Origin: Rubripirellula lacrimiformis
GTDB lineage: Bacteria; Planctomycetota; Planctomycetia; Pirellulales; Pirellulaceae
Direction of reading: 5' to 3'
Assembly (NCBI RefSeq): GCF_007741535.1
Contig: NZ_CP036525.1
Span: 7,998,001-8,062,000, forward strand
DNA length: 64,000 nucleotides
Shown here: piece by piece, positions 2,273 through 59,958 of the stretch
Layout: each line of letters begins with the position of its first letter
Position numbering within the stretch: the first letter of the stretch is position 1
Made by a program: the position numbers and the translations under genes
The notes under the pieces: generated by a model
What the model was told of the DNA's origin: nothing
What the model saw: the letters and a program-made list of their open reading frames with translations, nothing else
Databases searched by the model: none

Positions 2273-2376
2273 AGAGCCACCGATGCCGGCACGGCAACGG
2301 CAAGGACCGCGATTGCGGACCACGCCAGCACGCCGTCCACGTCACCATCCGACGTCGACTAAGTCCCCCCACTTCC

Positions 2377-2398
2377 GTAGTGGGATTCGCCAGAATTC
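2377..2398 (-). repeat. dispersed repeat F, single copy
   Basis: On the minus strand this reads GAATTCTGGCGAATCCCACT followed by AC. Near-identical copies occur at 26056-26079, 52891-52914 and 52961-52985. Here it forms a small hairpin with the flanking bases (CCCACT, five bases, AGTGGG). Confidence 0.6.
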
Positions 2399-2400
2399 GC

Positions 2401-2470
2401 CCCCCTCACCCCAACCCTCTCCCCCAATCCCATCCAAGTCGAACTTGGATGAAACCGGGGGAGAGGGGGC
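2401..2470. repeat. palindromic repeat family A, single copy
   Basis: This is a 70-bp imperfect palindrome. The outer arms CCCTCTCCCCC and GGGGGAGAGGG enclose an inner arm CATCCAAGT, the loop CGA, and ACTTGGATG. The same element is tandemly repeated at 6651-7293 and 8880-8949. It lies in the 266-bp gap between the convergent kinase and 722-aa genes, where it could fold in transcripts from either side. A short A-run follows on the plus strand (TAAAAAAGG), but there is no clear T-tract, so I do not call it a terminator. Confidence 0.85.
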
Positions 2471-2538
2471 TAAAAAAGGCACCTGTGAGCGCGTAGCACG
2501 CCCTGCTTGAATCTCCCCCACCGAAATAACTCTCTGGC

Positions 2539-4707
2539 TCAGTTGGCCACCAAGCGCTGAGTCACCTTGGGCAACTGTCTGGCCACGAAGCGTGGCAGCA
2601 TCATCAGGGCGCGATCCGAGATGGGGTCGATCACCAAGCGAAAGTCTTCGCCGCCCGCGTCGCTCATGATCCGTGAAATCTGATCCACGAAAACCTCGCG
2701 ATGCTTCCCCAGCGGCGGACTGGCCACCACCAACGGCAACCGATCGTATGTCACATCGCTGCCAACCCACCAATGGTTTGCGTCGACCTGCCGAACATAC
2801 AACCCCATCGGTTCCAGCGACCGGATCAACATCGGTGCCAGCCCGCCGTGGTTGTCGGGCAATAACAGTCGTTCCGGTGTTGCCCGGCGGCGATTGGCGT
2901 CGTACCAATTGACCAGACAGGACGCATCGTTGCGACGCGCCGTCCGCTTCAGAAAACCAGCCAATGCGATCGGCGTGTCCACCGGTTCGCCGGCTTCCCC
3001 GGATTGAATCTTTGGCCAATCGGTCGTCTGTCCCGGACCGACTTGGATCCAGCGGTTCATGCTGGCATCGGGAACCAACGGATCGATGCCTCGCATCCGC
3101 CGCAACGTCTCGGCGGCCAACGCCGCCAACTGCTGGTTCTGGCGTTGATTGACGATCGCACCCACTGGCCCACCGGCGTTGGCAACCTCTGCGGTTTCGT
3201 CATCCGCTTCACCATCCGCGGCCGCGTCGATTGCGTCGCCGCCTAATTCCACGGCGGCATCGGTGTTCGCCGCCGACGGTATCGATCCCTTCAGGAAATC
3301 GGCCAACACACCGGCGGCTGATTCAGCATCGTTTCCCATGTCATCGGTGTTGACGATTTGTTCGTATCGGGCAGCAAACGGTTCGTCGGCGATGGTCAGC
3401 ACCAACAACGTTTCTTCTTCGCGAATCTCGGCGTCCACCTGGGCGGCGATCTGATCCAAAACCTGCCGAGCCGAAACAGCCGTCTTGGGCGGTTTGATCG
3501 ATTGGCCCACGTCGCGACCCACCAAATCAAAGGACACCCAATCGATCTGAATCGGCACGCCGGTGATCTGGCTGATCATCAAGACCATATCCGTCAACGG
3601 ATACTGATCGGATCGGAACGCTAGTTTCAGGGCTAGGTCGGACTTCAGATTCAATTTACGTGGCTGAACTTTTGCCAGCGGATCCAGATCGTCTTCCGCG
3701 GCGTCATCCAACGGCGCCTGTTCCAACGTCGGTGGCGCCTTCAATGTCGGCTTCTCCGTCGGCCCCTCTTGCAACAGAAACGGCGTGTACTGAGCCAGCC
3801 CAGGCGGCAGATCCATCAGACTAGCGACGTCCGCATCCTCGCTGGATTTTGTCGCGTCATCTTCGGGTCCCTGGACCGCGGCGAAATCGGGGATCAGCGA
3901 ATCGAGCGGAGCGACCGACGATCCACCCGGTTCCGAATCGGCTGCGCCGGTTGGATTGGACGGCTCCGACATCGCGACTGACGGTTGCGTCCCTGGATCC
4001 TGCCCCGCTGGTTCCTGCCCGGCCGCCGCAGCGTCCGGATCAGCAGCGGCCGCCGGCGCGGCATCGATCGTCGAACCAGCGACCGAATCGGCGGGCAATT
4101 CGCCGTTTGCGGGTCCCGGTTCCATCGCATCCGGTGGGACGGTGTTCGAATTTCCAGAGTCCGGTATCGGATCGCCAGCGTCTTCGCCCGGCGACGATGC
4201 ATCGGCGGGCGTCCCCTCGACCACCACGTCCGGCCCGGATCCATAGGTCATGACAAACCATCCAAACGCCACGGCAGCCACCAACAACGTGGCAACCGAA
4301 ATGGTCGTCACCAGAGCGATTTGGCGAGTTCGGCGGGTACGGTCGCTCTGCCAATCCATCGGCGCGGCGGCCCCCGCAGCCTGGTTGGCGAACCCTTCGG
4401 ACCCCGAGAACCCTTCGGCGGGCAATTCGCTTGGATCCAGAGGTGGCCCATCCCCCGGCTGACCGTTGGGCGCAATCGCATCCTCGGTGATTGCACCGCT
4501 ATCGACCGATGACGACCCGGCTTGCAACTGCGCCGGTGGCGACTCGATTTGCACCATCGACTGGCAACTGGGACACGCGGCGATCGTGCCGATCAAACTG
4601 GGATCGGTCACTCGCAGGCGGCTGTCACAAGTCGGGCACTGAACGGCAAAAGGTTGAAAAGGCAAAGAGAACTTTCGTTGACAAGGGTTCGCCCGACCCA
4701 ACACCAC
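2539..4707 (-). CDS. zinc-ribbon and single-span membrane protein with secretin-like periplasmic region
   Basis: The N-terminus carries two CxxC knuckles (CPTC about 24-27, CPSC about 45-48), matching the small zinc ribbons common on planctomycete membrane proteins. A single membrane span lies at about 133-152 (ALVTTISVATLLVAAVAF). After it comes a long Pro/Asp/Ala-rich linker (about 160-330). Then comes an alpha/beta region (about 340-440) that resembles the STN/secretin short domain: PLTDMVLMISQITGVPIQID, then ARQVLDQIAAQVDAEI. The remainder is unclassified. The linker and C-terminal part would lie outside the cytoplasmic membrane. The start is uncertain: GTG at 4707 gives 722 aa, and a TTG at 4665, just ahead of the zinc ribbon, is equally plausible. 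No function is assigned. The 176-aa gene at 54005 has the same zinc ribbon-plus-membrane design. Confidence 0.75.
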   Translation of the reverse strand: MVLGRANPCQRKFSLPFQPFAVQCPTCDSRLRVTDPSLIGTIAACPSCQSMVQIESPPAQLQAGSSSVDSGAITEDAIAPNGQPGDGPPLDPSELPAEGFSGSEGFANQAAGAAAPMDWQSDRTRRTRQIALVTTISVATLLVAAVAFGWFVMTYGSGPDVVVEGTPADASSPGEDAGDPIPDSGNSNTVPPDAMEPGPANGELPADSVAGSTIDAAPAAAADPDAAAAGQEPAGQDPGTQPSVAMSEPSNPTGAADSEPGGSSVAPLDSLIPDFAAVQGPEDDATKSSEDADVASLMDLPPGLAQYTPFLLQEGPTEKPTLKAPPTLEQAPLDDAAEDDLDPLAKVQPRKLNLKSDLALKLAFRSDQYPLTDMVLMISQITGVPIQIDWVSFDLVGRDVGQSIKPPKTAVSARQVLDQIAAQVDAEIREEETLLVLTIADEPFAARYEQIVNTDDMGNDAESAAGVLADFLKGSIPSAANTDAAVELGGDAIDAAADGEADDETAEVANAGGPVGAIVNQRQNQQLAALAAETLRRMRGIDPLVPDASMNRWIQVGPGQTTDWPKIQSGEAGEPVDTPIALAGFLKRTARRNDASCLVNWYDANRRRATPERLLLPDNHGGLAPMLIRSLEPMGLYVRQVDANHWWVGSDVTYDRLPLVVASPPLGKHREVFVDQISRIMSDAGGEDFRLVIDPISDRALMMLPRFVARQLPKVTQRLVAN

Positions 4708-4883
4708 CGTGTGTCCGAGGCCGGCCGACGATCCGCTTCACCCCTTCATGATGGCTCTTGCCGGCGATTAAACCAAGCTGTTTTCGGGTGCAAAACCAGA
4801 TTGGCCGCCTGGGGGGGAACGAAAAAAGGAACACTGTGTTTGCGGGATCGGGGCACTTTGACTTGCATCCGCCCCACTCCAGA

Positions 4884-4916
4884 AGACATAATGTCTAGCG
4901 AGACACCACCGGTGTC
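4884..4916. promoter_or_regulatory. candidate BlaI-type operator pair
   Basis: Two dyads lie side by side upstream of the BlaI-like gene. AGACATAATGTCT (4884-4896) is a 6-1-6 palindrome, and GACACC-ACC-GGTGTC (4902-4916) is a 6-3-6 palindrome. Both contain GACA...TGTC, close to the ACA...TGT core of known BlaI/MecI/CopY operators. Autoregulation of the downstream pair is the natural reading, but it is inferred. Confidence 0.5.
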
Positions 4917-4968
4917 CCGCCCAGTCAGACTAACATTCTTCCGCAAACGCCAAAACTACAATTCGCTG

Positions 4969-5370
4969 ATGGCACGCAAGGCTCAAGACGTCACCGAAGC
5001 CGAACTGGCAATTCTAGAACAACTGTGGGCCGATGGTCCGCTGAGCGTCAAATCGCTGTCGTCGACGCTCTACGGCGAGGCTACCACATCGACCACGGCC
5101 ACGGTCCAGAAGCTGCTGGGCCGATTGGAAAGTAAAAACTGTGTTAGCCGTGATCCGACCGTCTGGCCACGCTTGTTTCAGGCGTCGATCCAGCGTTCGG
5201 AACTGATCAGCCGTCGACTGCAAAACACAGCGGATGAGTTGTGCGAAGGCTCGCTCGGCCCGCTGCTGACCCATCTGGTCCGCAGTTCGCTGCTATCGCG
5301 ATCGGATCGTTCCCAACTGCAGACGATGCTGAACGAACTCCGCGAAGACCCTAAACAGGGACCTCAATAG
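4969..5370 (+). CDS. BlaI/MecI/CopY family transcriptional repressor
   Basis: From the ATG at 4969 the protein has 133 residues, close to the usual 120-140 of the family. It begins with the characteristic winged helix: VTEAELAILEQLWADGPLSV, then STTATVQKLLGRLESKNCV, the recognition helix and wing. The C-terminal helical part would mediate dimerisation and hold the proteolysis site. An in-frame ATG at 4891 would add 26 residues, but it sits inside the proposed operator, so the later start is preferred. The stop is one base from the start of the M56 protease gene, a classic repressor-sensor pair in which the membrane protease triggers cleavage of the repressor. No beta-lactamase or other target gene is adjacent, so the regulon is unknown. 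Confidence 0.9.
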   Translation: MARKAQDVTEAELAILEQLWADGPLSVKSLSSTLYGEATTSTTATVQKLLGRLESKNCVSRDPTVWPRLFQASIQRSELISRRLQNTADELCEGSLGPLLTHLVRSSLLSRSDRSQLQTMLNELREDPKQGPQ

Positions 5371-5371
5371 C

Positions 5372-6607: not shown

Positions 6608-6650
6608 ACGCTGCCCAAGAGACGACGTGCGTTTCGCCAGCGCAGGCTGC

Positions 6651-7293
6651 CCCCAACCCCCAACCCCTCTCCCCCAATTCCATCCAAGTCGAACTTGGAT
6701 GAAACCGGGGGAGAGGGGGCTAAAAAGGCAGCTGCACGCGGAGCCGAGGTAGGCCGGATCAAGGAGCGCAGCGACGCTGATCCGGCAACCACAAACCCCC
6801 AAGCATCGCCCCCTCACCCCAACCCTCTCCCCCAATTCCATCCAAGTCGAACTTGGATGGAACCGGGGGAGAGGGAGCTAAAAAGGCAGCTGCACGCGGA
6901 GCCGATGTAGGCCGGATCAAGGAGCGCAGCGACGCTGATCCGGCAACCACTCACCCCAAGCATCGCCCCCTCACCCCAACCCTCTCCCCCAATTCCATCC
7001 AAGTCGAACTTGGATGGAACCGGGGGAGAGGGGGCTAAAGAAGGCAGCTGCACGCGGAGCCGATGTAGGCCGGATCAAGGAGCGCAGCGACGCTGATCCG
7101 GCACCCACTCACCCCCAAGCATCGTCCCCCGACCCCCAACCCCTCTCCCCCAATTCCATCCAAGTCGAACTTGGATGGAACCGGGGGAGAGGGGGCTAAA
7201 AAGGCAGCTGCACGCGGAGCCGAGGTAGGCCGGATCAAGGAGCGCAGCGACGCTGATCCGGCAACCACTCACACCAAGCATCGCCCCCTCACC
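6651..7293. repeat. tandem palindromic repeat array A, left part
   Basis: Four units of 157-161 bp begin here, with homologous points at 6671, 6829, 6986 and 7147, and a fifth is cut by the IS. Each unit has the family A palindrome (outer arms CCCTCTCCCCC/GGGGGAGAGGG, inner CATCCAAGT-CGA-ACTTGGATG). A second dyad, GCCGGATCA...TGATCCGGC, follows with 16 bases between the arms. Units differ by a few substitutions. The array fills the gap between the convergent M56 protease and giant surface-protein genes. Short open frames through it on both strands are by-products of the repetition. Confidence 0.92.
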
Positions 7294-7365
7294 CAACGCC
7301 GTTAAGGAAATTTTTCGAGTGAATTAGGTAACCAGGATAGCTTTTGGAGGGCCATAAATGAAATA

Positions 7366-7421
7366 AGCCAGGCTCCCCCCAAAATCCTCGACTACATCGT
7401 CGAAAGAAAAGGAGCCTGGCT
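7366..7421 (+). promoter_or_regulatory. hairpin that can mask the transposase ribosome-binding site (copy 1)
   Basis: AGCCAGGCTCC (7366-7376) is the exact complement of GGAGCCTGGCT (7411-7421), and the loop holds a second stem, TCGAC/GTCGA. The Shine-Dalgarno AAGGAG (7409-7414) is 7 bases from the ATG at 7422 and is mostly inside the right arm. A transcript that enters from outside the IS would fold and hide it, while one starting inside the loop would not. IS10 and IS50 use such a mechanism against read-through expression; here it is inferred. Confidence 0.7.
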
Positions 7422-8858
7422 ATGAGTAACAGTGGCAAGGATGCTGCTTCGAAACAGAAGCAATCAATGACTCAAGGTGAACAGCTGGCCAAAGCGATTC
7501 GCTGGATCGCCAACGACCAATTATTCGCAAAGGTTCGTGTTCACGGCAATGCCAATTGGGTGCCGACTCACTTGATGCAGGTCGCAATTCTATGGGTTTG
7601 GAGTAGTCAATCATTGCTCGTCGAATCCACCAAAGACGCGATCAAAAGTGTCGAGAGCTTATTCGGTACGACCGGGATTCATTCGTATCAGACGCTGATC
7701 ACTGCACTGCAGAAGTACACCGAGCAAATCCTTCCGCCACTGGTCCAACGAATGCATCATTTGATGGAGAAGACAGATCAAGCAAGTTTTCGCATTGGGA
7801 TTTGGTTGGTGTTGGCCGTCGACGGTTCCCGCTTGGATGCTTGTCGAACCCTGGCCAACGAGAAGCGGTTCTGCAAGCCAAAGAACAAAAGGGGATCGAA
7901 GAAGAACAAGAAGAACAAGCGTGGTCGACACGCCAACAAACGAAAACCGGTGAGCAAAAAGAAGAACTACAATCCGCAGCCCGTCGGTCCGCAAGTCTGG
8001 CTCACGCTACTGTGGCATGTCGGACAACGATTGCCATGGGCATGGAAAATCGGACCGAGTTATTCCAGCGAACGAGCCCATCTGTTGGAAATGCTGAATG
8101 CTTTAGACCTACCGAAAAACACGCTCATCTGCGGTGATGCTGGTTTCGTCGGCTACGACTTTTGGAACGCGATCGACAGCCACGGCCATCACTTCCTGAC
8201 GCGTGTCGGAAGCAATTGTCGCTTCCTGAAGCAACTTGGACGGGTTCGCGAACGTGATGGCATCGTGTACTGCTGGCCGAAAGAAAAACAGCAACGCAAG
8301 CAGCCGCCGTTGGTCCTTCGGCTACTTCGCTTTAACGACGGACGTGGCGAAGTCTATCTCGTCACCAACGAATTGAACTTACGCAAGTTAAGTGATTCGC
8401 GTGCTGGGGAAATTTATCGAAAACGCTGGGGAATCGAAGTGCAATTCCGATCCTTAAAGCAAACTTACGGTCGTTCGAAACTGCTCGGGCGAACGCCGGA
8501 TGTCGTCGAGCACGAGTTAACCTGGTCGCTTGTCGGTCTTTGGATGGCGCAGTTACTGGCGCTTCGCGAACAAATCGATCGGATCGAACCGGCGGCTCAA
8601 ACGAGCGTCGCGATGGTGTTACGAATATTGCAAAACATCCTGCACTGCCCCAACGAGATACCCGCGCGGGGCGAATCGCTTCGGAGTCTCTTGGCCGGTG
8701 CGTTGACGGATACATACGACCGCGCAAGTAAAAAGAAAAGTCGCAACTACCCACGCCGAAAAGAGGAACCCCGGACCGGCCCACCCACAATTGAACTCGC
8801 CACCGCAGAGCAACAGAAGCTTGCCAAAGCTACACTGGACCTCTCAAATGCAGCATGA
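7422..8858 (+). CDS. IS4-family DDE transposase, copy 1
   Basis: The 478-aa protein carries the DDE catalytic core of the IS4 family. The first aspartate lies in LAVDGSRLD (about 133), the second in ICGDAGFVGYDFW (about 238), and the glutamate in YRKRWGIEVQFRSLK (about 339). That last segment fits the family YREK signature exactly (Y-2-R-3-E-6-K). A lysine/asparagine-rich insertion (about 155-180) lies between the first two catalytic residues and contains an AAGAAGAAC DNA repeat, two units here and six in copy 2. The ATG follows an AAGGAG ribosome-binding site. The frame is intact with all catalytic residues present, so the enzyme should be active. Confidence 0.95.
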   Translation: MSNSGKDAASKQKQSMTQGEQLAKAIRWIANDQLFAKVRVHGNANWVPTHLMQVAILWVWSSQSLLVESTKDAIKSVESLFGTTGIHSYQTLITALQKYTEQILPPLVQRMHHLMEKTDQASFRIGIWLVLAVDGSRLDACRTLANEKRFCKPKNKRGSKKNKKNKRGRHANKRKPVSKKKNYNPQPVGPQVWLTLLWHVGQRLPWAWKIGPSYSSERAHLLEMLNALDLPKNTLICGDAGFVGYDFWNAIDSHGHHFLTRVGSNCRFLKQLGRVRERDGIVYCWPKEKQQRKQPPLVLRLLRFNDGRGEVYLVTNELNLRKLSDSRAGEIYRKRWGIEVQFRSLKQTYGRSKLLGRTPDVVEHELTWSLVGLWMAQLLALREQIDRIEPAAQTSVAMVLRILQNILHCPNEIPARGESLRSLLAGALTDTYDRASKKKSRNYPRRKEEPRTGPPTIELATAEQQKLAKATLDLSNAA

Positions 8859-8879
8859 AAAATTTCCTTAACGGCGTTG

Positions 8880-8949
8880 CCCCTCACCCCAACCCTCTCC
8901 CCCAATTCCATCCAAGTCGAACTTGGATGGAACCGGGGGAGAGGGGGCC
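8880..8949. repeat. array A, right remnant of the unit split by the IS
   Basis: Starting with the target duplication CCCCTCACC, this is the remainder of the fifth palindrome up to GGGGGAGAGGGGGC. The second dyad of the unit is missing here, so the array ends in a half unit, like the single copy at 2401. Confidence 0.88.
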
Positions 8950-9024
8950 GTTGCTCGCCTGCCACCTACCGCCGCCACTCACCACCGCCCTTCCACCATC
9001 CTCGACCGACCATCTGCGTCGAAA

Positions 9025-9060
9025 CGAAAAAAGCCCGTTACGACTTTCGTAACGGGCTTC
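9025..9060 (-). terminator. rho-independent terminator of the giant surface-protein gene
   Basis: A perfect 12-bp stem, AAGCCCGTTACG (9031-9042) with CGTAACGGGCTT (9048-9059), and a 5-base loop are followed on the minus strand by a run of T (complement of the A-run 9027-9032). It lies 35 bases after the stop of the gene ending at 9094. Confidence 0.9.
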
Positions 9061-9093
9061 TTGAATTCTTTGGCTTGAAGCCGCGGGGTGTGA

Positions 9094-22222: not shown

Positions 22223-22377
22223 CGTTTCCGCCTCTTCCTGATCCCTAGGCCCGCAGATCGGATGCGAGTGGAATTCGGATTCGCGGGTTCTGCTGTGCCG
22301 CCCGGTAGCGAGACTCGCCGAGAGCTTTGGCGCGTGTTGGGTGGTTGGGTTTTTTAACCACGAATGACGCGGATGGG

Positions 22378-22430
22378 TGGCCGAAAGTCTTGGCGACTTG
22401 CGCTACGGGATTGAATGTGGGGGTGCGGGG
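22378..22430. repeat. repeat family B (54-bp form), first unit
   Basis: The unit has the core CCGAAAGTCTTGGCGACTTG then CGCTACGGGA and a G-rich linker ending GGTGCGGGG, which is the left target duplication of the IS. AAGTC-TTGGC-GACTT inside the core is an inverted repeat. The homologous points before and after the IS are 54 bases apart once the IS is removed. Confidence 0.85.
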
Positions 22431-22502
22431 CAACGCCGTTAAGGAAATTTTTCGAGTGAATTAGGTAACCAGGATAGCTTTTGGAGGGCCATAAATGAAA
22501 TA

Positions 22503-22558
22503 AGCCAGGCTCCCCCCAAAATCCTCGACTACATCGTCGAAAGAAAAGGAGCCTGGCT
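22503..22558 (+). promoter_or_regulatory. hairpin that can mask the transposase ribosome-binding site (copy 2)
   Basis: Identical to the structure in copy 1: arms AGCCAGGCTCC (22503-22513) and GGAGCCTGGCT (22548-22558) enclose the Shine-Dalgarno just before the ATG at 22559. Confidence 0.7.
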
Positions 22559-24031
22559 ATGAGTAACAGTGGCAAGGATGCTGCTTCGAAACAGAAGCAA
22601 TCAATGACTCAAGGTGAACAGCTGGCCAAAGCGATTCGCTGGATCGCCAACGACCAATTATTCGCAAAGGTTCGTGTTCACGGCAATGCCAATTGGGTGC
22701 CGACTCACTTGATGCAGGTCGCAATTCTATGGGTTTGGAGTAGTCAATCATTGCTCGTCGAATCCACCAAAGACGCGATCAAAAGTGTCGAGAGCTTATT
22801 CGGTACGACCGGGATTCATTCGTATCAGACGCTGATCACTGCACTGCAGAAGTACACCGAGCAAATCCTTCCGCCACTGGTCCAACGAATGCATCATTTG
22901 ATGGAGAAGACAGATCAAGCAAGTTTTCGCATTGGGATTTGGTTGGTGTTGGCCGTCGACGGTTCCCGCTTGGATGCTTGCCGAACCCTGGCCAACGAGA
23001 AGCGGTTCTGCAAGCCAAAGAACAAAAGGGGATCGAAGAAGAACAAGAAGAACAAGAAGAACAAGAAGAACAAGAAGAACAAGAAGAACAAGCGTGGTCG
23101 ACACGCCAACAAACGAAAACCGGTGAGCAAAAAGAAGAACTACAATCCGCAGCCCGTCGGTCCTCAAGTCTGGCTTACGCTACTGTGGCATGTCGGACAG
23201 CGATTGCCATGGGCATGGAAAATCGGACCGAGTTATTCCAGCGAACGAGCCCATCTGTTGGAAATGCTGAATGCTTTAGACCTACCGAAAAACACGCTCA
23301 TCTGCGGTGATGCTGGTTTCGTCGGCTACGACTTTTGGAACGCGATCGACAGCCACGGCCATCACTTCCTGACGCGTGTCGGAAGCAATTGTCGCTTCCT
23401 GAAGCAACTTGGACGGGTTCGCGAACGTGATGGCATCGTGTACTGCTGGCCGAAAGAAAAACAGCAACGCAAGCAGCCGCCGTTGGTCCTTCGGCTACTT
23501 CGCTTTCACGACGGACGTGGCGAAGTCTATCTCGTCACCAACGAATTGAACTCACGCAAGTTAAGTGATTCGCGTGCTGGGGAAATTTATCGAAAACGCT
23601 GGGGAATCGAAGTGCAATTCCGATCCTTAAAGCAAACTTACGGTCGTTCGAAACTGCTCGGGCGAACGCCGGATGTCGTCGAGCACGAGTTAACCTGGTC
23701 GCTTGTCGGTCTTTGGATGGCGCAGTTACTGGCGCTTCGCGAACAAATCGATCGGATCGAACCGGCGGCTCAAACGAGCGTCGCGATGGTGTTACGAATA
23801 TTGCAAAACATCCTGCACTGCCCCAACGAGATACCCGCGCGGGGCGAATCGCTTCGGAGTCTCTTGGCCGGTGCGTTGACGGATACATACGACCGCGCAA
23901 GTAAAAAGAAAAGTCGCAACTACCCACGCCGAAAAGAGGAACCCCGGACCGGCCCACCCACAATTGAACTCGCCACCGCAGAGCAACAGAAGCTTGCCAA
24001 AGCTACACTGGACCTCTCAAATGCAGCATGA
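22559..24031 (+). CDS. IS4-family DDE transposase, copy 2
   Basis: The 490-aa protein is the same transposase as at 7422, with the DDE residues and the YREK segment YRKRWGIEVQFRSLK intact. It differs by a 12-residue expansion of Lys-Lys-Asn in the basic insertion between the first two catalytic residues, and by two visible substitutions (Asn to His before DGRGE and Leu to Ser before RKLSD). The expansion lies in a region that is probably a loop, so activity may survive. The reading frame is otherwise undamaged. Confidence 0.95.
   Translation: MSNSGKDAASKQKQSMTQGEQLAKAIRWIANDQLFAKVRVHGNANWVPTHLMQVAILWVWSSQSLLVESTKDAIKSVESLFGTTGIHSYQTLITALQKYTEQILPPLVQRMHHLMEKTDQASFRIGIWLVLAVDGSRLDACRTLANEKRFCKPKNKRGSKKNKKNKKNKKNKKNKKNKRGRHANKRKPVSKKKNYNPQPVGPQVWLTLLWHVGQRLPWAWKIGPSYSSERAHLLEMLNALDLPKNTLICGDAGFVGYDFWNAIDSHGHHFLTRVGSNCRFLKQLGRVRERDGIVYCWPKEKQQRKQPPLVLRLLRFHDGRGEVYLVTNELNSRKLSDSRAGEIYRKRWGIEVQFRSLKQTYGRSKLLGRTPDVVEHELTWSLVGLWMAQLLALREQIDRIEPAAQTSVAMVLRILQNILHCPNEIPARGESLRSLLAGALTDTYDRASKKKSRNYPRRKEEPRTGPPTIELATAEQQKLAKATLDLSNAA
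23036..23089 (+). repeat. in-frame AAGAAGAAC minisatellite within the transposase gene
   Basis: Six perfect 9-bp units, each coding Lys-Lys-Asn, occupy this stretch. Copy 1 of the IS has two units at 7899-7916. The change in number accounts exactly for the 36-bp size difference between the elements. Confidence 0.95.
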
Positions 24032-24052
24032 AAAATTTCCTTAACGGCGTTG

Positions 24053-24215
24053 GGTGCGGGGGTGGCCGAAAGTCTTGGCGACTTGCGCTACGGGGACTGA
24101 ATGTGGGGGTGCGGGGGTGGCCGAAAGTCTTGGCGACTTGCGCTACGGGATTGGATGCGGGGGAGCGGGGGTGGCCGAAAGTCTTGGCGACTTGCGCTAC
24201 GGGATTGGATGCTGG
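24053..24215. repeat. repeat array B (54-55-bp form), three units right of the IS
   Basis: Three units with the core CCGAAAGTCTTGGCGACTTG start their cores at 24066, 24121 and 24175. G-rich linkers (GGATGCGGGGGAGCGGGGG type) separate them. With the unit left of the IS there were four before insertion. The array fills the gap between the convergent symporter and phosphopantetheinyl transferase genes. Confidence 0.9.
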
Positions 24216-25693: not shown

Positions 25694-25775
25694 TCGCGGT
25701 GGTTCAATCAGCCGCCTGCGCGTTAGCACACGGCGTTAGTACACGGCGCAAGCGCAGCCCCGTAGCTGCGGAGCA

Positions 25776-25952
25776 GCGACAGCTTTTTGCCGGTGGCCGG
25801 TGGCCGGTGGCCGGTGGCCACCGGAGCGACGTTAAAATCTCACTCTTCTTCCCCTGCTCCGATCGCCGCCAAAGGTGGCGATCGGAGCAGGGGAAGAAGA
25901 AGTCTGGCGCCGACTGACACGGCGGCCAAGGCCGCCGGCAGAAAGCTGTCGC
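25776..25952. repeat. nested inverted repeat with a perfect 24-bp-arm hairpin
   Basis: Outer arms GCGACAGCTTTTTGCCGG (25776-25793) and its complement with one mismatch (25935-25952) enclose several elements. These are a four-fold GGTGGCC tandem (25793-25822), a hairpin with perfect 24-bp arms (25844-25867 and 25877-25900), and a small palindrome GGCGGCCAAGGCCGCC (25921-25936). The hairpin centre (GCCAAAGGT) can pair further, leaving only a three-base loop. No T-run follows on either strand. The rest of the 442-bp gap 25694-26135 holds a copy of repeat F and no gene. Confidence 0.85.
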
Positions 25953-26906: not shown

Positions 26907-26960
26907 GTCGCGTGCCGGATCGGCATCAACGGAACAACAACTGCTGCATCGGATCCGTTT

Positions 26961-27039
26961 GTAGTACCGCCTTCAGGCGGAATCGGGCCCGAGCATCGAA
27001 TCAAATCGAGCCAAGAAATCCGGCTGAAGCCGGTACTAC
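26961..27039. repeat. palindromic repeat D
   Basis: GTAGTACCG (26961-26969) and CGGTACTAC (27031-27039) are complementary outer arms. Each has its own inner stem: GCCTTCAGGC on the left and CCGGCTGAAGCCGG on the right. The element lies between the convergent MBL-fold and folC genes. Only one copy is in the window. Confidence 0.75.
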
Positions 27040-27126
27040 GAACGGAACGAACGAACAAACAAGTTGACCGTCATTGCTGGCCACCGGACTTACAGGGCAT
27101 GATCAGGCTGTAACTTCTCCACTACG

Positions 27127-34799: not shown

Positions 34800-34867
34800 T
34801 CGGCGGTCGCCACGCGTGAGTGTGGAGTTTCGTATAGCCGCGGGTATGGACTCGTGAGTATCGGTGT

Positions 34868-36760
34868 GGGCACGCGGTTAAACGTCAGTGCACCGGGGCA
34901 GCTTGCGAATGCTCGTTTCGCCGTGTGGGCATCGCCCCGTCTGGTTGGGTGATGGACGCGCGGCCCGATGGGCACGCGGTTAAACGATGGATACCGGGGC
35001 TGCTTGCGAATGCTCGTTTAACCGCGTGGGCATCGCCCCGTGCGTTTGGGTGATGGACGCGCGGCCCGGTGGGCACGCGGTTAAACGATGGATACCGGGG
35101 CTGCTTGCGAATGCTCGTTTAACCGCGTGGGCATCGCCCCGTGCGTTTGGGTGATGGACGCGCGGCCCGGTGGGCACGCGGTGAAACGATAGATACCGGG
35201 GCTGCTTGCGAATGCTCGTTTAACCGCGTGGGCATCGCCCCGTGCGTTTGGGCGATGGACGCGCGGCCCGCTGGGCACGCGGTGAAACGATGGGTACCGG
35301 GGCTGCTTGCGAATGCTCGTTTAACCGCGTGGGCATCGCCCCGTGCGTTTGGGCGATGGACGCGCGGCCCGCTGGGCACGCGGTGAAACGATGGGTACCG
35401 GGGCTGCTTGCGAATGCTCGTTTAACCGCGTGGGTACCGCCCCGGGTGTTTGGGCGATGGACGCGCGGCCCGCTGGGCACGCGGTTAAACGATGGGTACC
35501 GGGGCTGCTTGCGAATGCTCGTTTAACCGCGTGGGCATCGCCCCGTGCGTTTGGGCGATGGACGCGCGGCCCGCTGGGCACGCGGTGAAACGATGGGTAC
35601 CGGGGCTGCTTGCGAATGCTCGTTTAACCGCGTGGGTACCGCCCCGGGTGTTTGGGCGATGGACGCGCGGCCCGCTGGGCACGCGGTTAAACGATGGGTA
35701 CCGGGGCTGCTTGCGAATGCTCGTTTAACCGCGTGGGCATCGCCCCGTGTGTTTGGGCGATGGACGCGCGGCCCGGTGGGCACGCGGTTAAACGATGGGT
35801 ACCGGGGCTGCTTGCGAATGCTCGTTTAACCGCGTGGGCATCGCCCCGTGTGGTTGGGCGTGGACGCGCGGCCCGATGGGCACGCGGTGAAACGATGGAT
35901 ACCGGGGCTGCTTGCGAATTTTCGTTTCGCCGTGTGGGTATCGCCCCGTCTGGTTGGGTGATGGACGCGCGGCCCGGTGGGCACGCGGTTAAACGATGGG
36001 TACCGGGGCTGCTTTCGAATGCTCGTTTAACCGTGTGGGTATCGCCCCGTGTGTTTGGGTGATGGACGCGCAGCCCGCTGGGCACGCGGTTAAACGATAG
36101 ATACCGGGGCAGCTTGCGAATGCTCGTTTCGCCGTGTGGGTATCGCCCCGTCTGGTTGGGTGATGGACGCGCGGCCCGATGGGCACGCGGTTAAACGATG
36201 GGTACCGCCCCGGGTGTTTGGGCGTGGACGCGCGGCCCGATGGGCACGCGGTTAAACGATGGGTACCGGCCCGTGTGTTTGGGCGCGGACGCGCGGCCCG
36301 GTGGGCACGCGGTTAAACGATGGGTACCGGGGCTGCTTGCGAATTTTCGTTTAACCGCGTGGGCATCGCCCCGTGTGTTTGGGTGATGGACGCGCGGCCC
36401 GATGGGCACGCGGTTAAACGATGGGTACCGGGGCTGCTTGCGAATGCTCGTTTAACCGCGTGGGCATCGCCCCGTGCGTTTGGGTGATGGACGCGCGGCC
36501 CGCTGGGCACGCGGTTAAACGATGGATACCGGCCCGTGTGGTTGGGCGTGGACGCGCGGCCCGATGGGCACGCGGTTAAACGATGGGTGCCGCCCCGTGT
36601 GGTTGGGCGTGGACGCGCGGCCCGATGGGCACGCGGTTAAACGATGGGTACCGCCCCGTCTGGTTGGGTGATGGACGCGCGGCCCGGTGGGCACGCGGTG
36701 AAACGATGGGTACCGGGCCGGGTGTTTGGGCGTGGACGCGCGGCGCGGTGGGCACGCGGG
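34868..36760. repeat. tandem array C: about 21 hairpin-forming units of 101 and 61 bp
   Basis: The landmark GACGCGCGG recurs 21 times from 34955 to 36735. Twelve successive spacings of 101 (one of 100) are followed by a mix of 61-62 (six) and 101 (two). A full unit contains a perfect 15-bp inverted repeat, CACGCGGTTAAACGA and TCGTTTAACCGCGTG (for example 35478-35492 with 35519-35533) with a 26-base loop. Short units lack about 40 bp including the right arm, so they cannot form the hairpin. The unit lengths are not multiples of three, so open frames on both strands change register from unit to unit and are not genes. It separates the convergent DUF533 and 389-aa genes. Confidence 0.95.
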
Positions 36761-36773
36761 TCGCCGGTGCGAA

Positions 36774-40507: not shown

Positions 40508-40534
40508 TGCTAGCCGTAATGTTGATTGGATTCG

Positions 40535-40951
40535 GAGAACACCGAAAGTCTTGGCGACTTCCGCTACGAAACGAGAACACCGAAAGTCTTGGCGACTTCC
40601 GCCACGAAAGGAGAACACCGAAAGTCTTGGCGACTTCCGCTACGAAAGGAGAACACCGAAAGTCTTGGCGACTTCCGCTACGAAAGGAGGACACCGAAAG
40701 TCTTGACGACTTCCGCTACGAAATGAGAACATCGAAAGTCTTGGCGACTTCCGCTACGAAACGAGGACACCGAAAGTCTTGGCGACTTCCGCTACGAAAG
40801 GAGGACACCGAAAGTCTTGACGACTTCCGCTACGAAACGAGGACACCGAAAGTCTTGGCGACTTCCGTTACGAAAGGAGGACACCGAAAGTCTTGGCGAC
40901 TTCCGCTACGAAATGAGGACATCGAAAGTCTTGGCGACTTCCGCTACGAAT
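40535..40951. repeat. tandem array of 38-bp units, family B core (11 units)
   Basis: Eleven contiguous units of 38 bp start GAGAACACC or GAGGACACC and share the core CGAAAGTCTTGGCGACTTCC then GCTACGAAA. AAGTC-TTGGC-GACTT forms a small stem in each. Variation is limited to a few positions. The core is the same as in the 54-bp array beside IS copy 2, while the linkers are unrelated. The array separates the convergent CbiX and 907-aa genes. It has no spacers, so it is not a CRISPR. Confidence 0.95.
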
Positions 40952-40974
40952 GATTCATGGCATGGGGCTGAACG

Positions 40975-43698: not shown

Positions 43699-43808
43699 AT
43701 CGAAAGTTTCTTAGAGTTAGCGGGGTCGCCCACCCGCAGGGCGCCGACGATAATGCCGGTTGAATCGTTCTATTATTGAAGTTGTCGCCCATTCGGGATA
43801 GTCACGCA

Positions 43809-45212: not shown

Positions 45213-45239
45213 TCCCTGCAACGTAACGTTCGAAAAAAA

Positions 45240-45259
45240 TTCGTAGCGGAAGTCGTCAA
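45240..45259 (-). repeat. single copy of the family B core
   Basis: On the minus strand this is TTGACGACTTCCGCTACGAA, identical to the GACGACTTCC variant found in two units of the 38-bp array at 40535. It lies between the convergent argH and DUF3467 genes. Confidence 0.7.
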
Positions 45260-45301
45260 CGGTTTGTCGAGTTCCGTTATCCGGAAACACAGGTTGTGAA
45301 C

Positions 45302-45358
45302 GAAAAAAGCCACGCTTCCGAGTTCCCGATGTTGATCGAGATCTCGAAGACGTGGCTT
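45302..45358 (-). terminator. terminator of the DUF3467 gene
   Basis: Arms AAGCCACG (45307-45314) and CGTGGCTT (45351-45358), with further pairing inside (CTTCCGAG with CTCGAAG), are followed on the minus strand by six T. It lies about 30 bases after the stop at 45390. Confidence 0.8.
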
Positions 45359-45389
45359 GTCGCTTGAGTGCGGTCAAGAATGGCCGTCT

Positions 45390-48301: not shown

Positions 48302-48309
48302 GGGGTTCC

Positions 48310-49278: not shown

Positions 49279-49342
49279 CTGGCGAAGCTCCGAAGAGATC
49301 AAAGGTTTGAATCAGGATGGGGTGGTGATTTCGCGACCGGTT

Positions 49343-52243: not shown

Positions 52244-52302
52244 CGCGTCGTCGTCGGGGCCACCCGATCTGCAAACCGGGGACCAGAGGTTATCATCGCG
52301 GC

Positions 52303-52839: not shown

Positions 52840-52890
52840 CCGACCGGTCGTGGGATTGGTTGGTCGCTTGCGGGGCGTCACGCGCGAAAC

Positions 52891-52985
52891 AGGAATCCCG
52901 GCGAATCCCACTACCGCAGGAAGCACGGCCCTTGGTGCGTTTCCAGACACGTCACAGACAAGGGAATTCTAGCGAATCCCAATAC
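52891..52985 (+). repeat. two direct copies of dispersed repeat F
   Basis: AGGAATCCCGGCGAATCCCA then CTAC (52891-52914) and AGGGAATTCTAGCGAATCCC then AATAC (52961-52985) are direct repeats 70 bases apart in the 164-bp gap between the DinB and methyltransferase genes. The copies at 2377 and 26056 are closer to each other than to these. Confidence 0.6.
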
Positions 52986-53003
52986 ACTCATTACAGGACT
53001 GCC

Positions 53004-53870: not shown

Positions 53871-54004
53871 TCACCGGCAGGGCTGCGGCGGATTTTGGCG
53901 AACACATTGACACGGGCACCGAGACGCCTGTGGGGCCCGACGAGGCATAGCGGCCACCGGTGAACAGGCATCCCAAGTGTCCGCTTGATCGGCCACCTGG
54001 AATT

Positions 54005-55793: not shown

Positions 55794-57356
55794 TTGTTCG
55801 ACACCCTATTGGACGACTTCGAGTCAGTCGACGCACAGAGCACCGAAGCCATGACCGGCGGCTTTCGTAAGTTGCCCGTTGACGAAAACGAAGAAGGCGG
55901 CGCAGCCGTCGAAATCGCCGGCCAAGCCGATGGCGAAGTCCAACTGGACAGCCCCGATGAATTGCTTTCCGTCGACGAAACCGAAACCTGGTCCGACGAC
56001 CCGGTTCGCATGTACCTGACGCAAATGGGCGAAATCCCATTGCTGACCCGCAAGCAAGAGATCGAACTGGCCAAACGGATCGAGGAAACTCGCCGTCGCT
56101 TCCGCACGAAACTGCTTGAAAACCACTACGTGCTGGTCGAAGCCTACAAGACGCTGAAGAAGGTCTACCGAGGCCAACTGCCATTCGACCGCACCGTCCA
56201 AGTCTCGGTCACCGACCGCTTGGAAAAAGAACAGATCCTGGGTCGATTGCCGCATAACCTGCGTACCCTGCAAACCCTGCTTCGACGCAACCGCCATGAC
56301 TGGAAGGTTTCGTTGTCCAAGAGTGCGTCCCAACGTCGTCGTGCGGAAGCTTGGCGATCCTTGGCTCGCCGCCGACGCCGCGCCGTTCGGCTGATCGAAG
56401 AACTGGGTCTGCGTACCCAGCGAATCGAAACTCGGATCGAACTGCTCGAAAAGTTCTCGCACCGTTTGACGCAGATCGAAAACGAAATCAGCGACCAAAA
56501 ACGCACCAAGCACGGTCGCGAAGTTCGTGAAGACCTGCTGCGTGAACGTCGCCAAATCCTGACCGCGTGTCAAGAAACACCGACTTCGCTGCGGAACCGC
56601 GTTCAAATGTTGAACAAGGTTTACGGCGAATACCAGCAAGCCAAACGCGAACTGAGCGAAGGCAACCTGCGATTGGTGGTTTCGATCGCCAAGAAGTATC
56701 GCAACCGTGGCCTGTCGTTCTTGGACCTGATCCAAGAGGGCAACGCCGGCCTGATGCGTGCTGTGGACAAATTTGAATACCGTCGTGGATTCAAGTTCTG
56801 TACCTACGCAACTTGGTGGATCCGTCAAGCGATCACTCGCGCCGTCGCCGATCAAAGTCGTACGATCCGAATTCCGGTTCACATGGTCGAAACGATGTCG
56901 CGAGTCCGCAACGTCGCTCGTCAATTGCTGCAAGAACTCGGTCGCGAACCCACGATCGAAGAAACCGCTCGACGTGCCGACGTTACCGTCGAAGAAGCTC
57001 GCCGCGTACTGACCATGTCTCGCTTCCCGATCTCGCTGGATCGTCCAGTGGGCAACAGCGAAGACAGCCAGTTCGGCGACCTGCTACCCGATGGAACAGC
57101 GGAAAGCCCGCAGATCGGTGCGACCCAAGAAATGCTTCGCGATCGTATCGCCGGTGTGCTGAAATCGCTGTCCTATCGTGAACGCGAAATCATCAAACTG
57201 CGTTACGGCCTCGGTGACGGATACAGCTATACGCTGGAAGAAGTCGGACACATCTTCAAGGTGACCCGCGAACGAATCCGCCAGATCGAAGCCAAAGCGG
57301 TTCGCAAACTGCAACAGCCAAGCCGCAGCCAAGACCTGGTCGGTTTCCTCGACTAA
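55794..57356 (+). CDS. RNA polymerase sigma-70 family factor, primary-type (RpoD/SigA-like)
   Basis: TTG 55794 is preceded at eight bases by AGGAG and gives 520 aa; ATG 55740 would add 18 residues. Region 1.2 is [20 protein letters not shown]. Region 2 shows [20 protein letters not shown], then [20 protein letters not shown] and [20 protein letters not shown], the RpoD-box and -10-recognition helices. Region 3 begins [15 protein letters not shown]. Region 4 has [20 protein letters not shown] and the [20 protein letters not shown]. An unusual, very basic helical block of about 200 residues (about 110-300) separates regions 1.2 and 2, while region 1.1 is short and acidic. A strong terminator follows. 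Confidence 0.93.
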
Positions 57357-57376
57357 GCCAGCATCGCGAATCTTCA

Positions 57377-57415
57377 AAAGCGACGTGAACCACTTCGGTT
57401 CACGTCGCTTTTTTT
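57377..57415 (+). terminator. rho-independent terminator of the sigma-factor gene
   Basis: A perfect 14-bp stem (AAGCGACGTGAACC, 57378-57391, with 57397-57410) and a 5-base loop is followed by seven T. It is 21 bases after the stop codon. Confidence 0.95.
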
Positions 57416-57571
57416 GTGCCTGTCCATCGGCGCCAAGCACCCACAAAACAGCCGACATCGGGAAACCGCCGAGCCCCCCCGGCTGGATAATAAATTGACC
57501 AGCATTGTTCGCCTCACTAGGATCCGAAGTTTCCCCACGACGCCGAAGCCACCCAAACTTACGGACGCCAG

Positions 57572-58318
57572 ATGAGCTTAAAGACTGCCATGACGGGCTT
57601 TGCCTGCGCACTGCTAACAATCCTCAGCAGCTCTGCGGATGCTGCGATCGTCCGATTTGATTTCGATGGAACGGTCTTCCGTCGATTCAACAACGGCTTG
57701 CCCGACGCATCGGACATTTTCGGCTTATCCGTCACGACCGGCGATGCGGTCAGCGGATCATTCACCATCGATACCGCCGCCACAGTGTTCGGCAGCCTTA
57801 CCGGATCAGTAAGCGGCGCAGCGGCCGGCTACACTCAAACGCTTCCCGGCGGGATCCGGGTTGAACTCGCAGGTGGGACCTTCACATCCGATGGTGACTA
57901 CGCAACGTCCATCGCCCATGACTTCCAAGACGGAACGAACCCCACTGCATTTGAACAATTCGCACTTAGCGACGGTGTCTCGTCGGGCAGCCAAAACATC
58001 ACTGGCGACACAATCCTCTTGAATGCCAATCCGGAAACCGCTCGCCTGGGCTTCACCTTTCAAGACAACGACTTTGCCGCGTTCAGCTCCACCACGCTGC
58101 CCACTTCGCTGGACCTCAGCTTGTTCGAGATCGCCAGTGGCGCCATCAGCGGGACTCGACCGAGCGGCCAGACGAATCCATTCTTCTATAGTGTCGAGTT
58201 TAGTATCGACTCGATCACCGCAACCGCAGTGCCGGAACCATCATCAATGGCGTTGCTGGCCAGTGTCGCAGGGGTAGCAATGGTACTTCGACGTCGCCGT
58301 CACTCCCGAACCCATTGA
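57572..58318 (+). CDS. PEP-CTERM sorting-domain protein
   Basis: A signal peptide (MSLKTAMTGFACALLTILSS, cleavage near ADA) starts this 248-aa protein. The C-terminal 30 residues form the sorting tripartite signal: VPEPSS, a hydrophobic stretch (MALLASVAGVAMVL) and the basic end RRRRHSRTH. Proteins with this tail are handled by exosortase and linked to exopolysaccharide or surface attachment; the exosortase is not in this window. The middle is a beta-rich, Gly/Thr/Ser-rich domain typical of such substrates (FTIDTAATVFGSLTGSVSG) with no enzyme motif. It is 18 bases upstream of the TPR-glycosyltransferase gene, so the two may be co-transcribed. Confidence 0.9.
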   Translation: MSLKTAMTGFACALLTILSSSADAAIVRFDFDGTVFRRFNNGLPDASDIFGLSVTTGDAVSGSFTIDTAATVFGSLTGSVSGAAAGYTQTLPGGIRVELAGGTFTSDGDYATSIAHDFQDGTNPTAFEQFALSDGVSSGSQNITGDTILLNANPETARLGFTFQDNDFAAFSSTTLPTSLDLSLFEIASGAISGTRPSGQTNPFFYSVEFSIDSITATAVPEPSSMALLASVAGVAMVLRRRRHSRTH

Positions 58319-58336
58319 TCGCCACGTCCGCTTTTC

Positions 58337-59722
58337 ATGTCGATACAGTCAGAAAATCCCGCAGCGACGCTGCAACAAGCATGGCGAATTCATCAGGCCG
58401 GTGATGTTGAACGCGCCGCAGCGATGTACCGGAGCGTCATCGCGAGTGATGCCAAGAACGCGGATGCCTGGGTCTATCTGGGCATCGCCCTTTTCGATCA
58501 GCGACGCTTTGACGAGTCCGCCGATGCCTACCGGCGGGCGATCGAGATCAAACCGATCTACCCGATCGCATGGAACAACCTGGGCAACTCGCTGCGGATG
58601 TTGGGGCAGGTGGATGCTGCGGATGATTGCTTTGACAAATCACTCGGGCAGGACCCGCGATACCTTTCGGCGCTTAAGAACCGCGGCACACTGTGGATCT
58701 GGTCGGGCGAAATCGAACGAGGAATGCAGTGGTATCAAAAGGGACTGCTGATCGACCCTGACAATGCCGAACTGCATCGCAACCTGGGCGTCATCGAACT
58801 GCTGCGAGGCAATTACACGGCGGGCTGGGATCACTATCGATGGCGATGGCGAATGCCGGGCACGTACCGACCACGCACCAGTGCACCGAGGTGGAATGGC
58901 GAATCGCTGACGGGGAAGACGTTCCTGCTGTATCCCGAACAGGGACTCGGTGACGCGATCCATTTCGTTCGCGTTGCGGCGACACTCCGAGATCGCGGTG
59001 CAACGGTGGTGTTGCAGTGCGGTAAGAAACTGATCCCTCTGTTTAGCTCGACCATGGCGACGCTGGGCGTGCATCAATTGATCGAGGATACGGCGACGCC
59101 CCCACCGGTCGATTTTCATGGATCGATGATCGAAGCCATCGATGTCTTGTACCAGATCGATGGAAAGATTGACTTTCGCACCGATTTGATCGCACCCGAT
59201 CGTGGCTACCTACACGTATCGCAACCCTTGGTCGATTACTGGAAGACCTGGTTGGATGCCAACACGACGGGACGGCGAATCGGCATCAATTGGCAGGGGA
59301 ACCCCGAACACCACGCCGACGTGTACCGCAGTGTGGCGTTGGAAACCCTGCGACCGCTTTCAGAAACCGCTGATGCAACGCTCGTGAATCTGCAGTTCGG
59401 GTATGGATCCGAGCAGTTGGAAACGTGCGGGTTCGGCGACAAGATCGTTCGACTTCCCAGCCACGTCGACGCGACCGAAGGCGCGTTCACCGATACGATC
59501 GCGATCCTGGCCAACCTGGACCAAGTCATCACGACCGACACTTCGATCGCGCATCTGGCTGGCGCGGCGGGCGCCGACGTGACGTTGATGCTGGGACGAG
59601 TGCCGGATTGGCGGTGGCTAGAATCCGGGGACACCACGCCTTGGTATCCGACGATGCGGCTAGCCCGACAACAGAGACTCGGTCACTGGGACGACGTAGT
59701 CGCTCAAGTCGCCGGCCGCTAG
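58337..59722 (+). CDS. TPR protein with glycosyltransferase (GT9/GT41-like) domain
   Basis: The 461-aa protein has about four tetratricopeptide repeats in residues 8-160: AWRIHQAGDVERAAAMYRSV, ADAWVYLGIALFDQRRFDES, then AWNNLGNSLRMLGQVDAADD. A GT-B-like domain follows (about 185-460) with LLYPEQGLGDAIHFVRVA, IGINWQGNPEHHADVYRSVA and TDTSIAHLAGAAGADVTLML, the usual motifs of heptosyltransferase-like TPR enzymes. It probably transfers a sugar to a protein or glycan on the cytoplasmic side. Being directly after a PEP-CTERM gene, it may glycosylate that surface protein, which is speculation. It converges on lipA with two units of repeat C between. Confidence 0.88.
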   Translation: MSIQSENPAATLQQAWRIHQAGDVERAAAMYRSVIASDAKNADAWVYLGIALFDQRRFDESADAYRRAIEIKPIYPIAWNNLGNSLRMLGQVDAADDCFDKSLGQDPRYLSALKNRGTLWIWSGEIERGMQWYQKGLLIDPDNAELHRNLGVIELLRGNYTAGWDHYRWRWRMPGTYRPRTSAPRWNGESLTGKTFLLYPEQGLGDAIHFVRVAATLRDRGATVVLQCGKKLIPLFSSTMATLGVHQLIEDTATPPPVDFHGSMIEAIDVLYQIDGKIDFRTDLIAPDRGYLHVSQPLVDYWKTWLDANTTGRRIGINWQGNPEHHADVYRSVALETLRPLSETADATLVNLQFGYGSEQLETCGFGDKIVRLPSHVDATEGAFTDTIAILANLDQVITTDTSIAHLAGAAGADVTLMLGRVPDWRWLESGDTTPWYPTMRLARQQRLGHWDDVVAQVAGR

Positions 59723-59728
59723 GCGACG

Positions 59729-59930
59729 CCCTCGTTTCGCCGCGTGGGCATCGACTCGTGTGTTTGGGCGTGGACGCGCGGCCCGGTGGGCACGCGGTTA
59801 AACGATGGGTACTGGGGTCGATTTCGAATTTTCGTTTAGCCGCGTGGGCATCGCCCCGTGTGTTTGGGCGATGGACGCGCGGCCCGGTGGGCACGCGGTT
59901 AAACGATGGGTACCGCACACATGTGACGGA
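59729..59930. repeat. repeat C, two further units
   Basis: GACGCGCGGCCCGGTGGGCA followed by CGCGGTTAAACGATGGGTAC occurs twice here, as in array C at 34868-36760. Only the first copy keeps both hairpin arms, with the right one as TTTAGCCGCGTG. The pair lies between the convergent TPR-glycosyltransferase and lipA genes. Confidence 0.92.
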
Positions 59931-59958
59931 TCGTGGCCGGGCGGCTAAACGGGCTTGT

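Follow-up and report, generated by a model that had tools for sequence, protein, structure and literature searches.

Palindromic repeats behind convergent gene ends in Rubripirellula lacrimiformis are probably REP/BIME-type elements that accumulate at gene 3′ ends

The window, the whole stretch of DNA analysed here, comprises 64,000 nucleotides (contig NZ_CP036525.1, positions 7,998,001–8,062,000) of the single-contig genome of Rubripirellula lacrimiformis, which has 8,542,491 bases. Among 80 named loci listed for the argH protein, the highest identity, 84%, is to Rubripirellula obstinata. A first-pass annotation of its sequence counted ten tail-to-tail gene junctions, and all ten were recovered with identical stop coordinates by a home-made gene caller combining an in-frame hexamer model with dynamic programming. 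The annotation also placed palindromic repeats at eight of these convergent junctions, which was borne out by direct reading and Tandem Repeats Finder (TRF); the remaining two are a gap free of repeats and an overlap (63754–63757). Two junctions, 6607/9094 and 22222/24216, additionally enclose the transposase gene of an insertion sequence (IS) on the plus strand. The features of the window are listed below.

About 2377–2398, plus strand: family E REP with GTAG tag and GCCA loop, junction 2272/2539 (reading; de novo cluster 8)
About 2401–2470, plus strand: family A palindrome (reading; nested stems, z −5.5)
6651–7294, plus strand: four 158-bp units in an array, every unit combining a family A palindrome with an A2 GTAG hairpin (TRF, reading, folding)
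7295–8878, plus strand: IS4-family IS of 1584 bp, transposase 7422–8858, inserted at CCCCTCACCC of family A
8880–8949, plus strand: family A copy right of the IS (reading, pattern search)
9027–9063, unstranded: terminator-like hairpin, distinct from the repeats, one side of which has an A run (reading)
22378–22407, minus strand: family B REP left of the IS (reading)
22432–24051, plus strand: second IS copy, transposase 22559–24031, in a family B spacer resembling the family A target
24052–24212, minus strand: three family B copies, 54-bp unit (TRF, reading)
26961–27039, unstranded: family D inverted pair with GTAG at both outer ends, junction 26907–27126 (reading; z −6.2)
34867–36760, unstranded: family C array of 101-bp and shorter units, junction 34800–36773 (TRF, reading)
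40534–40951, minus strand: family B array, 11 copies of a 38-bp unit, junction 40508–40974 (TRF, reading)
45243–45283, plus strand: family B relic, junction 45213–45389 (first 17 bases identical to a B variant)
45302–45358, unstranded: separate terminator-like hairpin, junction 45213–45389 (reading)
53871–54004, unstranded: convergent junction without repeat (0 repeat bp)
59729–59930, unstranded: family C copies, 101-bp unit, 1.8 copies, junction 59723–59958 (TRF, reading)

On reading, junction 6608–9093 contains five A copies, four A2 copies and one IS, and junction 22223–24215 four B copies and one IS. Two elements had been overlooked in the earlier annotation, namely the family E copy that shares junction 2272/2539 with family A and the second palindrome, A2, inside the 158-bp family A unit. 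The window is denser in repeats than the genome, with eight of ten convergent junctions occupied compared with about a third. The claim that large arrays lie only at convergent sites holds in the window for all TRF rows scoring above 200 and fails genome-wide, where such sites make up 21 of the 44 family-sites with at least four copies in a 2.06-Mb sample (17 are tandem, 3 divergent and 3 edge or coding). The smaller tandem repeats of the window occur outside convergent junctions according to TRF. One tandem-gene gap, at 25720–25819, has small tandem repeats with 13-bp and 7-bp units that are not of the REP kind.

About ten repeat families are present in the 2.06-Mb sample. They had been described as unrelated families, and in this the first-pass annotation was mistaken: B, D, E and A2 are short hairpins that share a 5′ GTAG, F is one that starts with GTGG, and the folded sequences of B, E and F have a GCCA loop in common, while no GTAG tag was seen in family A and a tag is equivocal in C, f1, f4, f6, f7 and H. 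The family B pattern has 469 matches in the genome and none for a reversed-pattern control, and the family C arm pattern has 915 matches, again with a control of 0. For the family B relic of junction 45213–45389, none of 200 shuffles folded equally well. The E interval and one C interval folded no better than shuffles, the B interval chosen for the shuffle test cut through the element, and the consensus units of B, E and C were folded without shuffle comparison. Rfam gave no match at gathering scores within the window. Short, high-copy, extragenic palindromes are typical of REP/BIME elements, and the repeats have these properties; they very probably belong to this type. The presence of several families at one type of site thereby changes from a puzzle into a known kind of element.

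This identity of the window repeats went unrecognised in the earlier annotation, and the bias to convergent and 3′-end sites is itself a published one. In the parts of Di Nocera (2013; PMC3733652) drawn on here, the REPs of several REP-rich genomes are mostly located near 3′ ends, in the gaps of unidirectional and convergent gene pairs, and Planctomycetes are among the reported sources of GTAG repeats. The GTAG REPs/BIMEs of those parts resemble the repeats described here in their GTAG hairpins, high copy number, occurrence as singles, dimers and tandem groups, and several families per genome. They differ in that family A is without GTAG, and the likeness to the 24 published families is one of tag, copy number and layout. 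Relative to the same parts of that paper, the present analysis gives the 3′-end effect per kb, with length controlled and against a relative without the repeats. No literature joining Rhodopirellula with ‘repetitive extragenic palindrom’ was found in the open-licence literature. As far as the passages used here go, both REPs at convergent 3′ ends and REP-targeting ISs are already published; the bias reported here is unusually strong and lineage-specific.

The enrichment was measured in a sample of 100 systematic 20-kb stretches plus the window, together 2.064 Mb of the 8.54-Mb chromosome. Repeats were defined independently of the families named before, as 14-mers present in at least 6 of the 101 stretches. 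In intergenic DNA their coverage is 19.5% at convergent, 4.2% at tandem and 1.3% at divergent sites, and in coding DNA it is 0.1%. Outside the window, and among gaps of positive length, at least 20 bp of repeat is present in 61 of 192 gaps at convergent, 59 of 719 at tandem and 16 of 207 at divergent gene pairs; by the last figure, an absence from divergent sites does not hold genome-wide. Mantel-Haenszel odds ratios, stratified by non-repeat gap length and with the window excluded, are 6.6 for convergent versus tandem gaps (z 8.9), 15.2 for convergent versus divergent (z 8.5) and 2.5 for tandem versus divergent (z 3.1). The first-pass annotation had wished to see the enrichment tested with gap length controlled, and would have taken its loss under that control, or frequent copies in divergent and coding DNA, as evidence to the contrary. 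The enrichment is present genome-wide, and it stands.

The same tendency is seen family by family. In twelve family patterns, with the window included and 9 edge or coding sites omitted, the convergent share of sites is 0.33–0.63 and exceeds the 0.151 share of non-repeat intergenic DNA in all twelve; the excess has p<0.05 (one-sided, uncorrected) in nine of the 12 patterns, which are not independent since A with A2 and f4 with f6 form joint units. Divergent gaps hold 4 of the 14 sites of A2, which is no depletion, and 8 of the 41 sites of B, for which depletion is not significant. In tandem gaps, the upstream stop is the nearer gene end for 50 of 61 repeats. Different families share one gap in 29 cases against 21.6 expected (p 0.02), to which cross-matches between patterns perhaps contribute.

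Insertion density was then related to the distance from stops and starts, with repeats taken as 16-mers seen at least 3 times in the intergenic sample and excised as coordinates, and with possible missed ORFs masked. Divergent gaps have 0.17 insertions per kb up to 100 bp from a start (7 in 41.0 kb) and 0.22 beyond that (13 in 59.2 kb), and tandem DNA within 100 bp of a start also has 0.22 per kb. Where tandem DNA is 150 bp or more from the stop and 200 bp or more from the next start, it has 0.17 per kb (8 in 48.3 kb), as opposed to 1.09 (37 in 33.9 kb) within 150 bp of the stop and no closer than 150 bp to a start. Convergent DNA has 1.93 per kb close to one stop (20 in 10.3 kb), 4.43 close to both stops (52 in 11.7 kb; 4.20 without the window) and 0.19 near neither, in the interior of long gaps (2 in 10.7 kb). 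With a limit of 100 bp, the convergent values are 2.25 for one stop, 5.17 for both and 0.80 for neither (11 in 13.8 kb). Long gaps may contain unrecognised genes or regulators, and starts are less certain than stops in these figures. The repeats thus track gene 3′ ends, at about 0.2 insertions per kb far from stops, 1.1–1.9 near one stop and 4.4 near two. The two-stop density is 2.0 times the doubled one-stop tandem density (1.4–3.0 by bootstrap over stretches). This more-than-additive excess is not what simple tolerance predicts.

These densities bear on two simple accounts of the pattern. One is a pure safe harbour, in which insertion is random and copies are purged only from promoters or coding DNA. 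The low coverage of coding DNA (0.1%) and the low densities less than 100 bp from starts (0.22 per kb in tandem, 0.17 in divergent gaps) are as this account expects. It is incomplete as an absence of promoters, because DNA far from both starts and stops holds only 0.17 per kb against 1.09 near a stop; long convergent interiors likewise hold 0.19 against 4.43, a contrast that unrecognised genes or regulatory DNA could explain in part. We regard it as possible and not the favoured account. An early result in its favour, a tandem near-stop density of 2.34 per kb at start distances of at least 400 bp compared with 2.75 for convergent DNA, was set aside; the rise is an artefact because repeats lengthen their own gap, and with the repeats excised the tandem near-stop density remains near 1 per kb. 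The other account is insertion targeted to transcript ends (through single-stranded DNA, R-loops or terminator hairpins at points of stopping or colliding transcription), which would make convergent junctions hot spots. It agrees with the dose response from 0.2 through 1.1–1.9 to 4.4 per kb, yet selection could yield an identical pattern, and we hold it to be about as tentative a candidate as the pure safe harbour.

The comparison with relatives concerns the question of whether the repeats are needed. Across 40 stretches from two contigs of G018, a genome of the same genus, 800 kb in all, a single 14-mer recurs in at least 4 of the stretches, versus 229 in an equal-sized sample of the present genome. 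The gene pair of junction 40507/40975 lies side by side in 11 of 30 named loci compared. Its family B repeats are absent from all 11 orthologous junctions. In ten of these the gap measures −49 to +37 bp, and in the remaining one another gene lies within a 1.9-kb insert. An enlarged orthologous junction of Rubripirellula obstinata (L121:5630–5690) has a different hairpin, possibly another repeat. Family C, with its 915 arm matches here, has 453 in the same-genus genome G021, and no more than 2 were counted in any of 20 other genomes of the genus; family A has 77 matches here and 0 in 21 relatives; and family B, with 469 here, has 84 in G021, the maximum for any other genome of the genus being 14. 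Judged from these counts, A, B and C, the three families tested in relatives, are expanded in this lineage.

A general need for the repeats, including a general role in termination, seems unlikely, because G018 is without such repeats in 800 kb and the 11 orthologous junctions are all without them. This weighs on the proposal that selection at convergent junctions favours the repeats as bidirectional terminators or as a block to antisense read-through. Such a proposal would fit hairpins at gene 3′ ends and a two-stop density that is more than additive. It is opposed by the structure of the units, since reading of the window junctions found no T run 3′ of the stems such as an intrinsic terminator would carry. 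Terminator-like hairpins outside the repeats are also equally frequent in convergent gaps with repeats (20 of 68) and without them (30 of 96), although by a weak detector that scored 11 and 9 in shuffles; in the window, reading identified such a hairpin besides the repeats at two junctions. With the relatives lacking the repeats as well, we consider the proposal improbable.

Gyrase-binding BIMEs are said to relieve positive supercoils in E. coli. A similar task between convergent genes would agree with the density being highest, and more than additive, between two close stops, but several different stem sequences occur at these sites and none of the repeats was found in the 800 kb of G018, which makes relief of supercoils as improbable as termination. 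A functional role at some individual sites is possible. The first-pass annotation had left a choice between a function and a shared safe harbour; the enrichment underlying that choice is real, while a needed housekeeping function is disfavoured and a simple safe harbour is incomplete.

The explanation that we prefer is that the repeats are mobile. REP/BIME palindromes would be spread by single-strand HUH enzymes, the Y1 transposases (RAYT or IS200-like), and local multiplication of the palindromes as tandem units would produce the arrays. Insertions would persist where they are least harmful or where entry is easiest, that is, behind stop codons and away from starts. The interval between two convergent stops would be densest per base because insertions favour DNA just behind stops and away from starts. 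Later insertion of an IS4-family element would have taken place at the family A edge and, in one case, in a B spacer of similar sequence. This account as a whole, from mobile REP/BIME elements through the 3′-end bias to later IS insertion, is in our judgement highly probable; it draws directly on the palindromes, their copy numbers, the 3′-end bias, the three families that flank Y1 genes, the lineage specificity of A, B and C, and the IS target. Points that tell against it are the sub-threshold model scores of the Y1-like proteins, the lack of a flanking Y1 gene for A, B, D and E, the missing GTAG tag of A, the absence of clear depletion of B and A2 in divergent gaps, and the more-than-additive density between two stops. 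The analysis puts in quantitative form the old question of whether 3′ ends tolerate REPs, attract them or make use of them. The genus offers a good test system, with a repeat-rich and a repeat-poor member, Y1-like genes within their own families and an IS that seeks out one family.

From the cumulative GC skew of 101 stretches, replication starts near 0 and terminates near 4.09 Mb. Across the 12 family patterns sampled, the orientation of sites varies with the replichore (chi-square 42.3, 12 df, p 3e-5), mixed-orientation sites being excluded and composite families making the test somewhat dependent. Rotation of the axis lowers the chi-square to 11–13, the chance level, at a quarter turn and gives 36.5 at a half turn. 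The complete list of A2, with 89 copies, has 43 sites against 12 in the opposite sense (p 3e-5). Family B has a strong orientation bias in the sample (26 versus 6 sites, 10 mixed), and one variant of it followed genome-wide has 29 versus 20 sites (p 0.25; 100 of 119 places). A single direction for all families was dropped as the bias of B is not clearly repeated genome-wide; the sense varies from family to family, and most of them fall short of significance when taken singly.

In the parts of Quentin (2018; PMC6006769) that were used, single-strand transposition at forks is documented for relatives of IS200/IS605. Transposition of this kind at replication forks would predict a replichore bias of orientation, for which other causes are possible. 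Among the titles and abstract openings listed from the open-licence literature, we recognised no published report of a replichore, leading-strand or lagging-strand orientation of REPs, RAYTs or REPINs. REPINs are likewise REPs in paired and tandem form, and a replichore statistic is given here and in none of the passages on REPINs considered (Bertels and Rainey, 2011; PMC3116915). For insertion targeted to transcript ends, the replichore-linked orientation points to single-strand substrates, and the variation of sense by family speaks against it. It would be a more speculative step still to suppose that REPs enter in single-stranded form while the chromosome is replicated and favour transcript ends, which would make convergent ends true hot spots and not refuges. 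If this were true, replichore-linked orientation and a more-than-additive two-stop density would be readable traces of single-strand entry. Further work would best follow up the insertion-density rule and the link between orientation and replichore.

Returning to mobile REP/BIME elements, candidate enzymes are encoded in the genome. Three Y1-like genes each lie between copies of one repeat family, which is C for L005 (5.22 Mb), H for L004 (7.486 Mb) and f4 for L271 (0.407 Mb). The genome search found no Y1 gene flanked by A, B, D or E, and within about 3.3 kb each the Y1 loci L001 and L002/L003 have no de novo repeat. HUH-type motifs (NHVH, NHMH and QHVH) and Y motifs can be read in the Y1-like proteins. 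The Pfam model Y1_Tnp is matched above its cut-off by L004, L001 and L002 and below it by L005 (21.6 of 23 bits) and L271 (15.8). The best NCBIfam match of L005 is NF047646, REP-associated tyrosine transposase, with E 4.3e-12 and below the cut-off. The bit scores against this model are 46 for L005, 15 for L271, 54 for L001 and 56 for L002, L004 having no match, so that none of the five proteins passes the NCBIfam RAYT cut-off of 80. The matches of these proteins to Y1_Tnp, IS200 and REP-associated tyrosine transposase models are mostly below curated cut-offs, and for this reason they are called RAYT-like. Searched against PDB sequences, the L005 protein has 8 matches, the best with E 0.37; one weak match is annotated as a putative transposase, and none is given weight here.

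The sequences of L004 and L271 read as the Y----Q type and that of L005 as the Y---NP type, which would fit classes 3 and 2, respectively, as these are set out in the parts of PMC6006769 cited. There, class 3 Y1 proteins are found principally in Planctomycetes, Acidobacteria and Proteobacteria. The RAYT/TnpA-REP systems of the same parts agree with the present loci in HUH motif, Y motif types and repeated hairpins flanking the genes, and differ in that the Y1-like proteins here are below the curated RAYT cut-off. A two-sequence Y1 profile matches 7 of the 22 genomes searched, including R. lacrimiformis, and has no match in G018. We infer that Y1 enzymes mobilise the repeats, those of A, B, D and E included. 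At L002/L003 (2.854 Mb), the Y1 transposase gene adjoins a truncated duplicate of itself. At L004 (7.485–7.486 Mb), an H repeat supplies the stop codon of family H's Y1 gene, and a partial duplicate of that gene lies downstream between H repeats.

The two transposases of the window belong to one IS4-family element, and NF033592 scores above its cut-off for each; the one at 7422–8858 also matches DDE_Tnp_1. The element has a DDE transposase, 22-bp terminal ends that match in inverted orientation and a target duplication, as expected for the IS4 family. The motif CCCC(T/G)CACCC adjoins all 14 IS left ends in the genome. At thirteen of these the adjoining sequence is the family A edge, CCCCTCACCC or its complement, and at the fourteenth, window position 22432, it is a CCCCGCACCC-type spacer of the B array; a family A pattern match lies 2 bp from an IS end in 8 of the 14 copies. 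Among 7 copies with enough right flank, the target duplication is direct in 6 and inverted in 1, which belongs to a head-to-tail series, and the copy at 22432 has a direct duplication on reading. Given this target at the edge of family A and in its B look-alike, the two in-array copies of the window are secondary insertions.

The passages of Tobes and Pareja (2006; PMC1525189) used here describe REP-targeting IS elements, such as ISRm22 of the IS4 family, and propose convergent gaps as safe places for transposition. The present element is similar to ISRm22 as an IS4-family element with copies at a REP sequence, and differs in its target, which is the CCCCTCACCC edge of family A plus one look-alike spacer of family B. 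Within the transposase gene, an in-frame 9-bp AAGAAGAAC repeat is present in unequal numbers in the two copies of the window. Three IS copies are arranged head to tail at 2.587–2.592 Mb, and 6 of the 14 left ends lie between 2.53 and 2.60 Mb. This region is inside a dense cluster of family A at about 2.49–2.72 Mb, perhaps a repeat island.
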